Part shown: piece by piece, positions 28,468 through 36,008 of the stretch
Layout: every line of letters begins with the position of its first letter
How positions within the stretch are numbered: position 1 is the stretch's first letter
Assembly: GCA_001920415.1 (NCBI GenBank)
Contig: MNJR01000080.1
Coordinates: 11,731-47,738 of the forward strand
Source of the DNA: Acidobacteria bacterium 13_1_20CM_3_53_8
GTDB lineage: Bacteria > Acidobacteriota > Blastocatellia > Pyrinomonadales > Pyrinomonadaceae
DNA length: 36,008 nt
Direction: 5' to 3'
Made by a program: the position numbers and the translations under genes
Notes under the pieces: model-generated
What the model saw: only the letters and a program-made list of their open reading frames with translations
Database searches by the model: none
What the model was told of the DNA's origin: nothing

Positions 28468-30282
28468 ATGAGTGAAGGACGCAGAGTTAATGTGAAGCGT
28501 AGAGCGACTCTGGCGCTCGCAATGCTTCTGATCGTGTCGCTTCTTGGCGGCGGCTGCTTTCTGGATAGCGATGTCGAGCAGTATTACGGTCGCGTAGTGG
28601 TTCCGCGTGCGCAGGAGTTTCGTTGGAGCGATGGGGGCTTGCCGCAGACTTTCGATCCGGCTCTGGCCGCTGCGCCGCCCGATACGGACGCCGTGCGCGC
28701 AATCTTTGAAGGGCTGACGGAATACGACTCGCAGACGCTTCAGGCCGTGCCGGGCGTGGCAGAGCGTTGGGAATCATCGCCGGACGCGCGCGAGTGGACG
28801 TTCTATCTTCGACGAGATGCGCGCTGGTCGAATGGCGATACGGTCAAGGCGCAAGACTTCGTCTCTTCATGGGAACGCACGCTTCACTTGGGCGAGCGCG
28901 CCCCGCATGCTCGTTTGATGGAGAATATCGCTGGCGTTGAGTTTCCACACGTAGCCCAAGCTCAACCCTTGGCCGAACCTAGCGCTTCACCGGCGCAAAG
29001 CCCGCAACCGACAGCGACGCCGAACAGGGAAACGGCCATACAGCAGCCAAGACATGAAGCGAAGCCTGAGCCATTCGGAGCCGAAGCGCTCGGCGATTAT
29101 GTGCTACGCGTGCGGCTGCAACGCCCGGACAGAAGTTTCCCTTCACTCGTTGCGCATCCTGTCTTCCGGCCAGTTCATAATTCCGAAGACGAAGCGCAAT
29201 CTCAACAGGACGCAACGAATTTCATAACGAACGGCGCGTTTCATTTGACTAAAACAGGACGCGATACAGTCATCTTAGAGCGCGCGGGAAATTACTGGGA
29301 CGCGCGAGGCGTAAGCCTCGAACGCGTTCAATTCGTGAACACGCGAGACGCCGAAGATGCGCTCTACGCTTATCGCGCTGGCGAAGTTGATGCTGTGACG
29401 AACGCCGTGTTCGAGCCGCTTGCGCTGAAACTGCTCGCGCCGTACAAAGATTTCCGACGCGCGACCTACGGCGCTCTGACCTACTACAGCTTCAATCAAT
29501 CGCACGCGCCTTTCAATGATCGCCGCGTGCGCGAAGCTCTTGCCATTGTGATTGACCGCGACCGCATCAGCGAAGATTTGATGGGCGGGGCGACCGAGCC
29601 TGCGAAAAAATTTCTGCCCGTTCAGGTCAATTCGACAGAGCAGACTGGAGTTCCACTGCTTGAGCGTGACCCTGATCGCGCAAGACGATTGCTGGTGGAC
29701 GCAGGCTTTCCCGGAGGCAAGAATTTTCCGCGTGTGAAGCTCTTGATTAATCGCAACGAGCAGCAGCGTCAACTCGCGCGCGCCGTCGCAGACCTATGGC
29801 ACAGTGCTCTTGGCATTGAGACCGATATAGTTATAAAAAACTGGGACGATTACGAAGCGGCTGTGCGCGACGGCGACTACGACGTTGTGCGCAGAGGTAT
29901 GGTGATGCAGACGGTTGACGAGACTACGAACATGCGCGTGATGTTCGAGCCGGACGCTTTGGAAGAGCCTGTTGCCGTAGCTTCGCCCGAATCCGCAACC
30001 ACGTCGAATGCAAATTCGCAAGTCGCGCCTTCGCCCGGCAGTCAAACGGCTGCGGAAACAGTTCATGCGCCTTTACGTTTGCCGCCGCCCGTTTACACAG
30101 AAGCCGAAGCTATGCAGGAACTGCCAGCCATTCCTATCTACTTCGCTTCGTCCTACTCGCTTGTGAAGCCATACGTCACAGGGTTCGATACGAATTTGCT
30201 GGACGCGCCGACCTTGAAGCGCGTTAAGATAAACACGGCGTGGCAGGCTCAGCCATCACCGAGCACATCATGGCTAAGATAG
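28468..30282 (+). CDS. Peptide ABC transporter substrate-binding lipoprotein (divergent)
   Basis: Up to 604 residues, SBP_bac_5 family. A lipoprotein signal ends in LLGGGC (C30). The GTG at 28492 would give a more typical signal (VKRRATLALAMLL) and is a real alternative start. Family motifs are QTFDPALAA, EGLTEYDS, ERWESSPDAREWTFYLRRDARWSNGD, FNQSHAPFNDRRVREALAIV and the closing LPAIPIYFASSY. Two low-complexity Pro/Ala/Ser/Thr/Gln stretches are unusual: one after VEFPHVAQAQ (about residues 170-205) and one near the C-terminus (about 512-540). The second replaces the helical segment that usually precedes the IPIYF strand. It probably binds oligopeptides outside the cytoplasmic membrane and feeds the permease genes downstream. 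Confidence 0.87.
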   Translation: MSEGRRVNVKRRATLALAMLLIVSLLGGGCFLDSDVEQYYGRVVVPRAQEFRWSDGGLPQTFDPALAAAPPDTDAVRAIFEGLTEYDSQTLQAVPGVAERWESSPDAREWTFYLRRDARWSNGDTVKAQDFVSSWERTLHLGERAPHARLMENIAGVEFPHVAQAQPLAEPSASPAQSPQPTATPNRETAIQQPRHEAKPEPFGAEALGDYVLRVRLQRPDRSFPSLVAHPVFRPVHNSEDEAQSQQDATNFITNGAFHLTKTGRDTVILERAGNYWDARGVSLERVQFVNTRDAEDALYAYRAGEVDAVTNAVFEPLALKLLAPYKDFRRATYGALTYYSFNQSHAPFNDRRVREALAIVIDRDRISEDLMGGATEPAKKFLPVQVNSTEQTGVPLLERDPDRARRLLVDAGFPGGKNFPRVKLLINRNEQQRQLARAVADLWHSALGIETDIVIKNWDDYEAAVRDGDYDVVRRGMVMQTVDETTNMRVMFEPDALEEPVAVASPESATTSNANSQVAPSPGSQTAAETVHAPLRLPPPVYTEAEAMQELPAIPIYFASSYSLVKPYVTGFDTNLLDAPTLKRVKINTAWQAQPSPSTSWLR

Positions 30283-30601: not shown

Positions 30602-32572
30602 ATGCTGTTCATCTTCAAATCCGTGCAAATTCGTTTGGCCGTCGCGCTTATTGCGATGGCGCTCGTCGTCATTGCCTGCACAGCTTCGGCAAAGAATGAA
30701 CCTTATTTTGGTAAGACGAAGCCGCCCGAAGGGCAAGTTCTTCGCTACGTCTCAGGCTCCGAGCCGGAATCGCTTGATCCGCAGATAGGCACAGGCCAAC
30801 CTGAAGCGCGAATCTACATGGCGCTTTACGACGGCCTTTGCGAGTACGACCCTAAGACTGCCGGGCCGATTCCCTCTATAGCTGAAAGCTGGGAACCGAA
30901 TCAGGACAATTCAGAGTTCGTCTTCCATCTAAGGAAGAACGCGCGCTTTTCTAACGGCGACCCCATCACTGCGCAAGATTTTCTTTACAGCTTCCGGCGC
31001 GCTCTTTCGCCAGAATTAGCTGCGCGCTACGCCTACATAGCCTATTACATTAAATACGCAGAGGCATACAACAACGGCAGCGTCTTCGTGCGCGACCCGC
31101 GCACAGGAGAGTTTTTGCTCGAAAGAGATTTTAGCGAGCCTGCGGATAATTCTTCAAACAATGAGACGGTTTCGACTCCGAGCGGTGCCGCGCTCGCCAC
31201 GGAATCTTCTGCGCAGAACACTCCCTTTCACGAATACATTCATTCGCCTACGCGCGTAACTTTGCCCGGAGACCAGGCAGGTCGCGCCAAAGCTCTGGCA
31301 AAGAATGCGAAACTTAAAGCCGCCGTAGAGGGCAAAGAGTTTGTGCCTGTGAAGGCGGAAGACATAGGTGTAGAGGCTGTTGATGACTACACCTTGCGCG
31401 TGACCTTGGGCCAGCGCGCCCCATTTTTCATAAGCCTCATGCCGCACCAACTCTTCCGCGCAGTCCATCGAAAAACTATAGAAAGATTTCATGAGGCGTG
31501 GACTCAGCCGGGCAACATTGTGACTTCGGGAGCCTTCAAGGTCGAGGCGTGGGTTCCCTACGACCGTCTAGTAGTCGTGCGCGACCCTATGTTCTGGGAC
31601 GCCGCACGCGTCCAACTCAGCAAGATTATCTTCTACCCGCTTCAGGATAATACGACGATCATGAACCTTTACAAGGCGGGCGCGGTTGACGCAGTGCAGA
31701 ATCACAGCGTGCCTGCAAGCTGGCTTGACCATGTCAGAAGTTTAAGGGATTACATGGGCGCGCCCGAAGTGACAACAGAGTATTATCAGTTCAATACGAC
31801 TAAGAAGCCTATGGACGACGTTCGCGTGCGCAGGGCTTTTAACATGTCGATTAATAAAGTGGCGTTGGCGGAATGGCGTAAGGTGGCTATCCCCTGGGCT
31901 GGTCTGACGCCAAAGGGAATCTTTCCGGGCTATCCGCAACCTGCGGGCGAAGGCTACGACCCGCAGAAAGCGAAACAGCTTTTGGCAGAGGCCGGATACA
32001 GGGATGCTTCTGGCAACTACGACCCGAAGAAATTTCCTGTTGATCAGGTGGAGTTGACTACTAACTCCGAAGGCTCAAACGTTCAGATCGCAGAGTTCAT
32101 ACAGGCGCAGTGGAAGCAGAACCTTGGCATCACGATTCCCATCAAATCTATGGAGTTCAAAACTTTTCTGGTCTATCGTGCCAACCTTGAATACAAAGGA
32201 ATAGCGCGCAGCGGCTGGGTAGGTGATTACATGGACCCGAACACTTTCTTGAACATCTTCACGACGCGGACAGGTGATAACGGCACGGGCTGGTACGACC
32301 CGAAGTATGTGGCGATGATTAACGAAGCGAACTCGATGCTGGATTCGCAGAAGCGCCTGCAACTGCTTGCTCAGGCCGAAGCCTACTTGCTAGATGCGCA
32401 GCCTATCATCCCGCTCTTCTCGGCCTCGACCAACTGGACGAAGAAGCCTTATGTGAAGGGGATGTACCCGAACCCGCAGACGCTTCATCCCTGGAAGTAC
32501 GTTTATATTGAATACGACACGTCGAAGTGGGATCAGGGCGTGCCCGACATGACTCCGGGCGGAGCCGATTAA
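30602..32572 (+). CDS. oppA: Oligopeptide ABC transporter substrate-binding lipoprotein
   Basis: 656 residues, SBP_bac_5/OppA type. A lipoprotein signal (IRLAVALIAMALVVIACTAS) has Cys near residue 26. Typical segments are SEPESLDPQIGTGQPEARI, YDGLCEYDPKTAGPIPSIAE, FHLRKNARFSNGDPITAQDF, NTTKKPMDDVRVRRAFNMSI, RSGWVGDYMDPNTFLNIF and the C-terminal QAEAYLLDAQPIIPLFSAS. An insert of about 60 polar residues lies around residues 150-230, so it is longer than the usual 540. It captures peptides outside the membrane and is followed immediately by the permease genes. GGGAGG precedes the ATG. Confidence 0.93.
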   Translation: MLFIFKSVQIRLAVALIAMALVVIACTASAKNEPYFGKTKPPEGQVLRYVSGSEPESLDPQIGTGQPEARIYMALYDGLCEYDPKTAGPIPSIAESWEPNQDNSEFVFHLRKNARFSNGDPITAQDFLYSFRRALSPELAARYAYIAYYIKYAEAYNNGSVFVRDPRTGEFLLERDFSEPADNSSNNETVSTPSGAALATESSAQNTPFHEYIHSPTRVTLPGDQAGRAKALAKNAKLKAAVEGKEFVPVKAEDIGVEAVDDYTLRVTLGQRAPFFISLMPHQLFRAVHRKTIERFHEAWTQPGNIVTSGAFKVEAWVPYDRLVVVRDPMFWDAARVQLSKIIFYPLQDNTTIMNLYKAGAVDAVQNHSVPASWLDHVRSLRDYMGAPEVTTEYYQFNTTKKPMDDVRVRRAFNMSINKVALAEWRKVAIPWAGLTPKGIFPGYPQPAGEGYDPQKAKQLLAEAGYRDASGNYDPKKFPVDQVELTTNSEGSNVQIAEFIQAQWKQNLGITIPIKSMEFKTFLVYRANLEYKGIARSGWVGDYMDPNTFLNIFTTRTGDNGTGWYDPKYVAMINEANSMLDSQKRLQLLAQAEAYLLDAQPIIPLFSASTNWTKKPYVKGMYPNPQTLHPWKYVYIEYDTSKWDQGVPDMTPGGAD

Positions 32573-32586
32573 TGTAGGAGAGGCAT

Positions 32587-33507
32587 ATGCTGAGTTTTGT
32601 AATCCGCCGCGTAATCATCATAGTGCCCATGCTGCTGATAATCGTGACAGTGACGTGGGCGCTAATCAGACTTGCTCCCGGCAACTTTTATACAGGGGAA
32701 AAAAAGCTTCCCGCCGCGATTGAGCAGAACCTGAAGCAGAAGTACGGTCTGGACAAGCCCTGGTATGTGCAGTATGGGAGGATGATTAAGAATTTTGCGC
32801 GCGGCGACTTTGGCTCGTCGCTCAAGTATGAAGGTCAGACCGTCAACGCGATTCTCGCACGCACCCTTCCCGTCTCTGTCACACTGGGACTGCTCGCTTA
32901 TCTATTAGCGCTGATTGTAGGCATAACTTCCGGGACGCTCGCGGCGCTGAAACAAAACTCTTGGTCGGATTACTCGTCAATGGCGCTTGCTATGCTGGGC
33001 ATCTCTGTGCCCAATTTCGTCCTTGGCCCGCTTCTGGTGCTGGTCTTCTCGCTCACGTTCTACTGGCTACCGCCCGCTCTCTGGGGCGGCTTTCCCAGCA
33101 TTCATCTTATCTTGCCCGTCATCACTCTTTCGGCTATCTACATGGCCTACATTGCCCGACTGACTCGTTCGGGCATGCTGGAAGTTTTGCGTTCGGACTA
33201 TATTCGCACGGCGCGCGCAAAGGGCTTGAGCGAGCGCGACGTGATTGTTAAGCACGCGCTCAGAGGCGGGCTGCTGCCGGTCGTCTCCTTTTCCGGCCCT
33301 GCGCTCGCTTTCCTAATCACAGGCACGGTTGTCGTCGAAAAGGTTTTCGCATTGCCCGGCCTGGGAAACTATTTCATCAACGCTTGTTTCAACCGGGACG
33401 AGCCTTTGATAATCGGCGTTGTGGCTTTCATAGCCATAGCCGTTCTGGTATTCAACCTGCTGGTTGACATCTCTTACGCATTCTTTGACCCGCGCATCAG
33501 GTACTAA
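32587..33507 (+). CDS. oppB: Peptide ABC transporter permease, OppB type
   Basis: 306 residues, normal length. The first helix (LSFVIRRVIIIVPMLLIIVTVTWALIRLAPG) is the classic OppB/DppB start, with RLAPGNFY after it. Five further membrane segments follow. The EAA loop that contacts the ATPase is DYIRTARAKGLSERDVIVKHALRGG, and the end DISYAFFDPRIRY is typical. It is part of the inner-membrane channel with OppC. A strong AGGAGAGG lies before the ATG, 14 nt after oppA. Confidence 0.96.
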   Translation: MLSFVIRRVIIIVPMLLIIVTVTWALIRLAPGNFYTGEKKLPAAIEQNLKQKYGLDKPWYVQYGRMIKNFARGDFGSSLKYEGQTVNAILARTLPVSVTLGLLAYLLALIVGITSGTLAALKQNSWSDYSSMALAMLGISVPNFVLGPLLVLVFSLTFYWLPPALWGGFPSIHLILPVITLSAIYMAYIARLTRSGMLEVLRSDYIRTARAKGLSERDVIVKHALRGGLLPVVSFSGPALAFLITGTVVVEKVFALPGLGNYFINACFNRDEPLIIGVVAFIAIAVLVFNLLVDISYAFFDPRIRY

Positions 33508-33511
33508 AGTC

Positions 33512-34510
33512 ATGAAAGACGAGAGATCTCTGAACACAAATGAGCCTGCGGCGCCTAGAGAGCCTGCGCTTACGCCACTCGGTACGCCGCCCGCTCCGCC
33601 CGTTCGCGCGCGCCATGGCGACATCATTCATCCAACCGCCGAGTTGGCCGTAGGAGAAGGCGATGTTCGCTCTGCTGAAATCGGGGGCGAAATTCTTTCC
33701 GGCACATCTTTATGGAAAGACGCATGGCGCAGACTTTTGCGGAACAAGCTGGCTGTATTCGGCCTTGTTGTTGTGGTGATAGTAATACTTGCCTCGATCA
33801 TCGGCCCGTACATCATCAGGTGGACGACAGGCTTCTCGTATGACAGCATTCCGCCGGACGTGAATCTGGACAAATCTTTTCCGCCTTTCACAGCGCCGAA
33901 CGGCTCTTTCTCGTGGACGCATCCGATGGGAACGGACGACGCCGGGCGCGACATTCTAGCGCGCGTGCTGATTGGCGGGGATAACGTGATGATGCGAATT
34001 GTGGATGTGCTCTACTCGCTCCCCTACATCATCATCGTCATAGTGCTGCTCTCGCTTTTCGGAAACCGTTCTCCGCTAGGCCAACTCGCACTACTCTTCA
34101 TAGCTTTGGGAGCGGTGTCTTGGCTGACTATGGCGCGCATAGTACGCGGTCAGATAATTTCCCTGAAAAATCAGGAGTTCGTGCTGGCCGCTAAAGCTAC
34201 TGGAGTTTCAACGACCAAGATTATTTTTCGACACCTGGTGCCGAACACGCTGGGGCCTGTGATCGTGTACGCGACTTTGACTATACCTTCTGTGATGCTG
34301 ACGGAAGCTTTTCTCTCTTTCTTAGGGCTGGGGGTTCAAGCGCCGCTTGCTTCTTGGGGCAGCCTTTCTTCCGACGGGATTAAAAATATTGCAATCTTCC
34401 CCTGGCAACTGATCTTCCCCGGCGTCACTATGGCACTAACGCTATTCTCCCTTAATTTCTTAGGCGACGGCTTGCGCGACGCCCTTGACCCGCAGATGCG
34501 AAAGGTGTAG
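33512..34510 (+). CDS. oppC: Peptide ABC transporter permease, OppC type, apparently missing an internal segment
   Basis: 332 residues from the ATG at 33512. A Pro-rich cytoplasmic extension of about 65 residues precedes the first helix (LAVFGLVVVVIVILASIIGPY). The motif HPMGTDDAGRDILARVLIGG is followed directly by DNVMMRIVDVLYSLPYI. In OppC relatives, these two blocks are separated by about 35-45 residues (ISL...GYFGGxxDN) that include one membrane helix and the start of the transmembrane core. The rest is normal, including the EAA loop EFVLAAKATGVSTTKIIFRH and the LGDGLRDALDPQ end. Either a real in-frame deletion or a divergent permease. The start has no strong ribosome site and begins 4 nt after oppB. 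Confidence 0.88.
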   Translation: MKDERSLNTNEPAAPREPALTPLGTPPAPPVRARHGDIIHPTAELAVGEGDVRSAEIGGEILSGTSLWKDAWRRLLRNKLAVFGLVVVVIVILASIIGPYIIRWTTGFSYDSIPPDVNLDKSFPPFTAPNGSFSWTHPMGTDDAGRDILARVLIGGDNVMMRIVDVLYSLPYIIIVIVLLSLFGNRSPLGQLALLFIALGAVSWLTMARIVRGQIISLKNQEFVLAAKATGVSTTKIIFRHLVPNTLGPVIVYATLTIPSVMLTEAFLSFLGLGVQAPLASWGSLSSDGIKNIAIFPWQLIFPGVTMALTLFSLNFLGDGLRDALDPQMRKV

Positions 34511-34512
34511 CG

Positions 34513-34616
34513 ATTTTGGATTTTGGATTTTAGATTTTGGATTACAAGCTCAGAGAAATCTCGGCCTAAATCCAGAATGAAACCAATCCAAAATCCAAAA
34601 TCTAAAATCCAAAATG
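34513..34616. repeat. GATTTTG/GATTTTA heptamer inverted repeat in the oppC-oppD gap
   Basis: Left arm about 34513-34545 (GATTTTG, GATTTTG, GATTTTA, GATTTTG) and right arm about 34584-34613 (ATCCAAA, ATCCAAA, ATCTAAA, ATCCAAA). The right arm runs straight into the ATG of oppD at 34614, so the repeat supplies the start-codon context and no Shine-Dalgarno remains. Confidence 0.9.
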
Positions 34617-35678
34617 GAACGTAACGGAAATCTACTTGAGGTCAAAGACCTGCGGACTTATTTCGAGACCGAGGACGGGACGGTCAAGGCCGTTGACGGA
34701 ATCACTTTCGATCTAAAGCGCGGCGAAACCCTTGGCATTGTCGGCGAGAGCGGTTCGGGAAAGTCCGTCACGAACCTTTCGATCATACGTCTGATTCCAG
34801 AGCCGCCAGGCAAGATTGTTTCAGGAGAAATCCTCTTAAACGGTCAGGACATAATGGCTCTGTCCGCAGAAGAGGTGCGAAAGATTCGCGGCAAGCGCAT
34901 AGCGATGATCTTTCAAGACCCTATGACTTCGCTCAATCCTTTCATGCGCATCTCGCGTCAGTTGATGGAGATAACGGAACTTCATCTGGGGCATTCCAGA
35001 GAGCAGGCATACGAGCACGCCATCAAGATGTTGGAAACCGTCGGTATACCTGACGCGCGAGCGCGTGTGGGCAGCTACCCGCATGAGTTTTCGGGCGGCA
35101 TGCGACAGCGCGTGATGATTGCCATGGCGCTCGCGTGCGAGCCTGAGCTTTTGATTGCGGACGAGCCAACGACGGCGCTGGACGTGACCATTCAGGCGCA
35201 GATTCTTGAGTTGATAAAGAAGCTGAAAGAGGATACAGGCACGAGCGTCATTCTCATCACGCACGATCTTGGCGTCGTAGCAGGAATGACGGATCACATC
35301 ATAGTCATGTACGCGGGAAAAGTTTTCGAGCAATCGCCCACGCGCGAGCTATTTGCGCTGCCCGGCAATCCGTACACTAAGGGGTTGCTGCGCTCCGTGC
35401 CAGACCCTGCGCATGAAGAGGGAACAGAGCTTTATCAAATCCCCGGTTTGCCGCCGGACGTTGCGCGTCTTGGGCCGGGCTGCCCCTTCGCGCCGCGTTG
35501 CTATCGCGCCGAAGAGATTTGTAAACAAGAGTTTCCCCCGTTCGTTCAACTGACAAGCGAGCACTTTTCGCTCTGCCATTTCGCCGAAGAGGTTTACGCA
35601 CATTCGCATGAAGATCGAAGCGAGCGCGATCGGCTGAAAGCTGAGTCCTCAACCGCTCGAAGTGAGTCAAGAGGTTAA
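34614..35678 (+). CDS. oppD: Peptide ABC transporter ATP-binding protein, OppD type
   Basis: 354 residues. Walker A GESGSGKS (44-51), signature FSGGMRQRV, Walker [13 protein letters not shown] and the switch His in LITHDLGVV are all present. The C-terminal oligopeptide-transporter extension has [14 protein letters not shown] plus a later Cys (SLCHF), the four-Cys iron-sulfur-type motif of OppD/DppD. It couples ATP hydrolysis to peptide import at the cytoplasmic face. The start is fixed by homology ([20 protein letters not shown]). An OppF-like gene follows 8 nt on. Confidence 0.96.
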
Positions 35679-35686
35679 AATTTCTG

Positions 35687-36008
35687 ATGAGCATGGAAGC
35701 AGCATTCGCATCGCCTGACAGCAACATGCCTCCTCCAATCGAGCGCGGGCGTGATGAAGAGTTAATCGCCATACGCGATCTCAAAGTCCATTTCGACCTG
35801 GGCTTCGATATGAAACTTGGTCTCAGTAAAGCGCCAAAATGGGTCTGGCAATTGAGCTTGATTTTGGGCATTGTGCTTGGATTTGTTTTAGGCTGGCCGC
35901 TTGGTTCAATCATTGGCTCTGGCATTGGAAGCAGAATAGGCGGCCTTCTAGGCACAATCGTCGCGCGTACTGTTCTCCTGCTCGTTGCATTGCTTATAGG
36001 CTTCATCA
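35687..36008 (+). CDS. oppF: OppF-like ABC ATP-binding protein with inserted hydrophobic segments (3' truncated by window)
   Basis: 107 residues are visible from ATG 35687, 8 nt after oppD. The first conserved strand of a peptide-transporter ATPase is present (LIAIRDLKVHFDLGF), after a 26-residue polar leader. In place of the expected AVDGVSF and Walker A region comes a short polar link (KLGLSKAPKW), then a hydrophobic helix (QLSLILGIVLGFVLGWPLGS), a Gly-rich stretch (IIGSGIGSRIGGLLG) and a second hydrophobic helix (VLLLVALLIGF). This would insert two membrane spans near the start of a normally soluble ATPase. Position says OppF; the rest of the gene is needed to confirm it. Confidence 0.65.
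   Translation, partial: MSMEAAFASPDSNMPPPIERGRDEELIAIRDLKVHFDLGFDMKLGLSKAPKWVWQLSLILGIVLGFVLGWPLGSIIGSGIGSRIGGLLGTIVARTVLLLVALLIGFI

Follow-up and report, generated by a model that had tools for sequence, protein, structure and literature searches.

The ATPases of ABC importers are peripheral subunits held by coupling helices, and in the OppF and DppF proteins known to us the loop between strands beta-1 and beta-2 is short and contains no membrane-spanning segment. The genome of Acidobacteria bacterium 13_1_20CM_3_53_8 raises the question of whether such an ATPase can itself be a membrane protein, as one stretch of it (36,008 nucleotides, hereafter the window) ends in a frame that begins like OppF and continues with two hydrophobic segments. 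We conclude that the frame most likely represents a genuine variant, in which an ABC importer ATPase has been made a membrane protein by the growth of a loop.

An open frame at the end of the opp operon

The frame lies at the end of an operon on the forward strand that encodes two peptide-binding proteins (28468..30282 and 30602..32572, both PF00496), the permeases OppB (32587..33507, PF00528 and PF19300) and OppC (33512..34510), and OppD (34614..35678), an ordinary ABC ATPase (PF00005) with a C-terminal oligo_HPY domain (PF08352). The order binding protein, oppB, oppC, oppD, oppF is common to the window and to a relative discussed below (G029), in which one binding protein was seen. The operon context of the OppF/DppF subfamily (oppB, oppC, oppD and a binding protein) is therefore found in both genomes, and in both the operon is preceded by genes that we take to be folD and coaE.

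The 5' part of oppF (107 codons, 35687..36008, forward strand) adjoins oppD, and its frame (35687..36007+, 107 amino acids) stays open to the contig end. The window ends where the contig ends (G000:C148, base 47738), and any Walker A of this oppF would lie beyond it. The first OppF strand (LIAIRDLKVHFDLG) belongs to a beta-1 and A-loop region (LIAIRDLKVHFDLGF, residues 26-40, about 35762-35806, forward strand) of a kind common to hairpin-bearing and ordinary OppF proteins. It is followed by two strongly hydrophobic segments, predicted transmembrane helices on the basis of a scan with 19-residue windows and a Kyte-Doolittle threshold of 1.6: LILGIVLGFVLGWPLGSII (about 35858-35914, forward strand, hydrophobicity 2.28) and GLLGTIVARTVLLLVALLI (about 35942-35998, forward strand, 2.37), joined by the Gly-rich turn GSGIGSRIG. 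The preliminary description, which reported two hydrophobic helices with a Gly-rich linker after the first strand, is confirmed in this respect. Lysine and arginine number three before the window hairpin and one in its turn; the downstream flank lies beyond the contig end. A single-sequence AlphaFold2 model of the frame lends weak support, with helices at residues 51-76 and 81-106 at low confidence (pLDDT 69, pTM 0.31); the same model turns residues 20-44, including beta-1, into helix.

Is this frame OppF at all? An unrelated membrane protein with a chance beta-1-like motif would be consistent with the result of a Pfam scan, in which the 107 residues had no match, but the frame adjoins oppD and its N-terminus matches those of ordinary OppF proteins in this family (E as low as 1.9e-9), which makes such a coincidence very improbable. 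We infer that the truncated oppF continues into an ATPase. A search for its remaining part elsewhere in the assembly did not find it; contig 69 carries the best OppF core of this genome, which belongs to a paralog of 60% identity, and short, weak matches elsewhere in the assembly are all that the last 129 bases of the window give (best E 0.008).

Hairpins in the OppF proteins of relatives

We searched 119 genomes of the order, probably the Pyrinomonadales, and the listing gave an OppF ortholog for each of 99 of them (E <=7.7e-131); the remaining 20 genomes, including that of the window, have no row among the 99. Six of the 99 listed orthologs have a two-helix hairpin between beta-1 and beta-2, five in genus g10 (G157, G158, G159, G160 and G061) and one in g3 (G029). 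Its site is bounded by the motifs V(H/Y)FD(L/A)G and (T/V)VKAVDGVS, and the loop that bears it comprises about 70-90 residues with two predicted transmembrane helices. In all six proteins the hairpin is followed by Walker A, the Q-loop, FSGGQRQR, Walker B, the D-loop and the H-switch. The suggestion that an OppF-type ATPase may have a pair of hydrophobic helices following its first strand, made from the window alone, is thus borne out by six relatives in which the hairpin stands at the same place and the ATPase is intact. The six come from separate genome assemblies, each with the ATPase downstream, and the G029 gene sits inside a 447 kb contig (G029:C1). Four C-terminal Fe-S-type cysteines are present in these six proteins and in G006, a further OppF with an insertion (7/7); G006 also has the complete set of ATPase motifs (Walker A, Q-loop, signature, Walker B, D-loop and H-switch). 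Such cysteines are reported to bind [4Fe-4S] in E. coli DppF (PMC12136057).

The other orthologs mostly have ordinary loops. In 88 of the 99 the alignment spans the beta-1/beta-2 loop without an insertion, the net change in length being -13 to +4 residues. The 11 alignments that start late are those of the six hairpin proteins, G006, G022 and G056, and the contig-cut G012 and G140; the N-terminus of the G012 protein is found on another contig and has an ordinary loop. In G022 (L156) and G056 (L157) the same loop is enlarged to 45-46 hydrophilic residues, which indicates that it tolerates inserts. The hairpin is patchily distributed and is missing in close siblings of its bearers, and is therefore dispensable.

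Hydrophobicity, charge and selection

Hydrophobic peaks of this kind are rare in comparable proteins. Among 250 non-identical NBD-type open reading frames from the collected loci, 29 have any 19-residue window above 1.6. For 19 of these 29 frames this amounts to one marginal peak (1.62-1.95) in ordinary core sequence downstream of Walker A, and a pair of strong peaks ahead of Walker A is found in the six hairpin OppFs alone. The G006 protein has three peaks, all after Walker A, and a single strong peak lies ahead of beta-1 in two frames (L090 and L138), where it perhaps precedes the true start. The window frame and the six relatives, each with two strong hydrophobic segments, do not fit the description of a soluble peripheral subunit without transmembrane segments.

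In all six relatives the two hairpin flanks together contain 8-16 lysines and arginines versus 1-2 in the turn, so the hairpins fit the positive-inside rule. Hydrophobicity and charge bias together predict a two-pass integral membrane protein with both ends in the cytoplasm. Within one group of four genomes (G158, G159, G160 and G061), pairwise NG86 estimates, given here as values without a significance test, place the dN/dS of the insert at 0.28-0.60 and that of the ATPase at 0.10-0.19 in six of six pairs; the G158 insert includes three unresolved residues. The inserts of this group have diverged to 42-62% identity while remaining in frame and hydrophobic, and the four hairpins look to be under purifying selection.

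A proposed membrane anchor for the motor and its alternatives

The arrangement is probably that of an Opp/Dpp-type importer in which the beta-1/beta-2 loop of OppF has grown into a two-pass transmembrane hairpin that anchors the motor beside OppC/OppB. Beta-1 and the A-loop, at the start of the chain, would be cytoplasmic; the chain would then cross the membrane twice, re-enter the cytoplasm at beta-2 (VKAVDGVS) and form the normal ATPase fold; because both hairpin ends would stay cytoplasmic, neither the fold nor its partners need change. In E. coli DppBCDF each contact between a membrane domain and an NBD is described as made via a coupling helix, and the contacts between DppC and DppF as mainly hydrogen bonds (PMC12136057). 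For a type IV transporter, the neighbour of the A-loop tyrosine is reported to be touched by a residue next to the contact of coupling helix 1 (PMC11267003). This points to a membrane-facing position for the stretch that directly follows the A-loop, which may by extension hold for OppF. A hairpin grown from the loop after the A-loop would then sit beside OppC, where it would most likely serve as a permanent membrane anchor for OppF alongside OppC/OppB and prevent dissociation of the motor. Membrane insertion, packing beside OppC and the anchoring function are all inferred from these features.

Two other explanations were weighed. The insertion could be neutral or decaying, tolerated by the loop without benefit in a few lineages. 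Its patchiness (6/99), the faster evolution of the insert relative to the ATPase and the hydrophilic expansions of the same loop in G022 and G056 all fit this account, but dN/dS is below 1 in every pair of the four-genome group despite the divergence of the inserts, the positive-inside pattern is kept in six of six, and homologous hairpins occur in two genera. We consider neutrality unlikely. An assembly or binning artefact, in which unrelated membrane-protein DNA has been joined to oppF at the contig end and the window hairpin is no part of OppF, is less probable still. It is suggested by the position of the window hairpin within the last 190 bases of the contig, by its dissimilarity to the hairpins of the relatives and by a suspicious in-frame loss of 96 bases from oppC in the same operon, and the order search yielded no other genome of the window's genus. 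Against it, the frame is open across the join with steady G+C (0.49-0.52, without a jump), and the six separate assemblies, one with the gene inside a long contig, have a hairpin at this very place together with the ATPase.

The shortened OppC

The preliminary description had also linked the hydrophobic segments to a shortened OppC next door, and the shortening itself is real in the window sequence. Relative to 13 relatives the window OppC has a 32-residue gap that corresponds to the second transmembrane helix (TM2), an in-frame loss of 32 codons (96 bases) with its junction at 33979/33980, and the BPD_transp_1 profile is entered at position 17. The loss is confined to the window, at one of the 14 OppCs in an alignment whose pattern missed others, or one of 16 when G157 and G055, read afterwards, are included. 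Losing one pass would put the EAA loop on the wrong side, which suggests that the window OppC is broken or misassembled. In the oppC genes of relatives, GGCGG-like sequence stands at both ends of the stretch that is missing in the window; such ends would be consistent with a deletion by slippage or with a collapse in the assembly.

The link between the two changes, that the OppF hairpin replaces the helix lost from OppC, does not hold. TM2 is retained in the OppC of all five hairpin bearers in which it can be read (G157, G159, G160, G061 and G029; the fetched contig of G158 stops before OppC), so relatives with full-length OppC share the hairpin and compensation fails. The idea had in its favour that both changes occur within one operon, and a first pairwise comparison of hairpin and TM2 was weakly similar (z up to 2.7). 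Against two TM2 profiles, with a background of 242 membrane windows of which some come from related permeases, the window hairpin ranks 110/243 and 162/237, and its DNA similarity to the TM2 of seven relatives is equalled by 32 to 200 of 200 shuffles. Moreover, a two-pass hairpin should be unable to restore topology after the loss of one pass. Compensation is thus hardly credible, and a transfer of the helix from OppC to OppF was rejected on the same profile and DNA comparisons.

Origin and spread of the hairpins

The hairpins of G029 and G157, which belong to different genera, are homologous (score 91; among 300 other membrane-rich windows the highest score is 61). One family is formed by the hairpins of G160, G061 and G159 (z >=19 in three pairs), and that of G158 can be aligned with it. 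Between the window hairpin and those of the relatives we detected no homology (z <=1.6). A similarity of the window hairpin to the G006 insertion (z 5.5 versus shuffles) was discarded, as an unrelated membrane-rich window among 300 scored 71 versus 69. A Pfam search for the origin of the hairpins gave sub-threshold matches only, and two matches restricted to the hydrophobic part (G030:C437, peptidase-like by eye, and G016:C17, transporter-like by eye) look like chance.

In a tree of 48 OppF sequences, from which G027 was dropped (missed by the pattern) and the window left out (no core), the hairpin rows are scattered in an 18-row clade that comprises genomes of g10 and g3 plus one of g29; siblings without the hairpin stand among them, and many of the forks are unresolved. 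In the OppC tree the five g10/g3 rows exclude the window (support 95/91), and the fork that leads to G012 is unresolved. The history may comprise one old gain followed by several losses, or several separate gains.

To cover other groups, we examined 80 further loci chosen by nearness to the G029 protein, mostly from outside the Acidobacteriota (the best match is Acidobacteriota, and four are Pyrinomonadaceae). A pattern search recovered 51 beta-1/beta-2 loops, all of 6-14 residues; loops missed by the pattern were covered by the hydrophobicity scan only. Of 15 six-residue loops, 14 belong to the OppD-like type, in which this is the usual length. In proteins of the FSGGQ (OppF-like) type, 27 of 36 loops have a length of 13-14 residues, and by eye many of them end in a small hydrophobic tip (GILFQR, for example), which suggests that the hairpin expands a loop that already tends to be long and hydrophobic; some OppF-like loops of Clostridia have just seven residues. 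A search of 396 genomes of the phylum gave matches at 1e-108 in 90 genomes. Of the rows that start late we inspected 20, among them second copies of OppF; 18 came from this search and two from the order search. In this set, 19 have ordinary loops without a strong peak before Walker A (highest 1.52), and the twentieth, G002, was missed by the pattern. Eight phylum-wide matches that extend into the hairpin region proved on inspection to have ordinary loops. Across the 80 loci (by pattern or scan), the 19 rows with readable loops and these eight matches, no second case of the hairpin was found outside the order.

Known systems and a second insertion site

The hairpin proteins share the operon context, ATPase motifs, oligo_HPY domain and Fe-S cysteine pattern of OppF/DppF (NCBIfam NF011659 OppF and NF008453; PDB 8z21 and 8z1v), and differ from them by the loop of about 70-90 residues with its two predicted transmembrane helices. 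PF08352 was found in both proteins scanned, those of G157 and G006. The G157 protein, the only hairpin OppF scanned against the NCBIfam OppF equivalog, scores 402.8 bits, below the cut-off of 540, and is therefore filed as an OppF-type ATPase and not as an equivalog of the E. coli protein; Pfam and NCBIfam describe it just as an oligopeptide-type ABC ATPase. Seven PDB sequences are matched at 1e-60 by the G160 protein, with alignments that begin at residue 89 or later, that is, at the hairpin end or beyond. In titles and the beginnings of abstracts, mainly from the open-access literature, we recognised no report of a transmembrane insertion in OppF or another importer NBD. ABC exporters and MacB-type proteins have a membrane domain and an NBD fused in one chain. 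The hairpin OppFs resemble them in that the NBD is tied to the membrane within its own chain; in the fused proteins, however, the membrane domain stands before or after the NBD and builds the pathway, whereas the hairpin breaks into the NBD fold and separate OppB and OppC subunits supply the pathway.

The G006 protein (L005/L039, G006:C243) carries a mostly hydrophobic in-frame insertion of about 150 residues in the helical subdomain (residues about 150-300), which follows GQIIGEPIETF and has three helices by the scan and a fourth by eye; its beta-1/beta-2 loop is ordinary. It is the same gene from the same order and is likewise predicted to be integral to the membrane, with a different insertion site. 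A search of the 119 genomes for this insertion returned itself and two chance matches.

More speculatively, peptide-importer NBDs of this order may have turned repeatedly into integral membrane subunits at two sites of the fold, with helices that join OppB/OppC and tune coupling, giving a type I importer with at least 14 membrane helices versus 12 and a motor unable to dissociate. If so, the beta-1/beta-2 loop and the helical subdomain would be the two NBD sites of membrane insertion. Membrane helices inside an ATPase fold that has lost no motif would show that an NBD can be anchored directly, and same-genus pairs with and without the hairpin would offer a natural test of whether NBD dissociation or position limits transport.

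Two further observations concern other loci. In G120 (L160) and G122 (L166), cysteine-pair motifs that appear zinc-ribbon-like by eye stand in frame before the OppF ATPase. In Tissierella pigra (L140), a frame of 420 codons from about 5680 passes, by eye, from an OppC-like N-terminus with the first membrane helix to an OppD-type ATPase, and looks like a fusion or a deletion between oppC and oppD.
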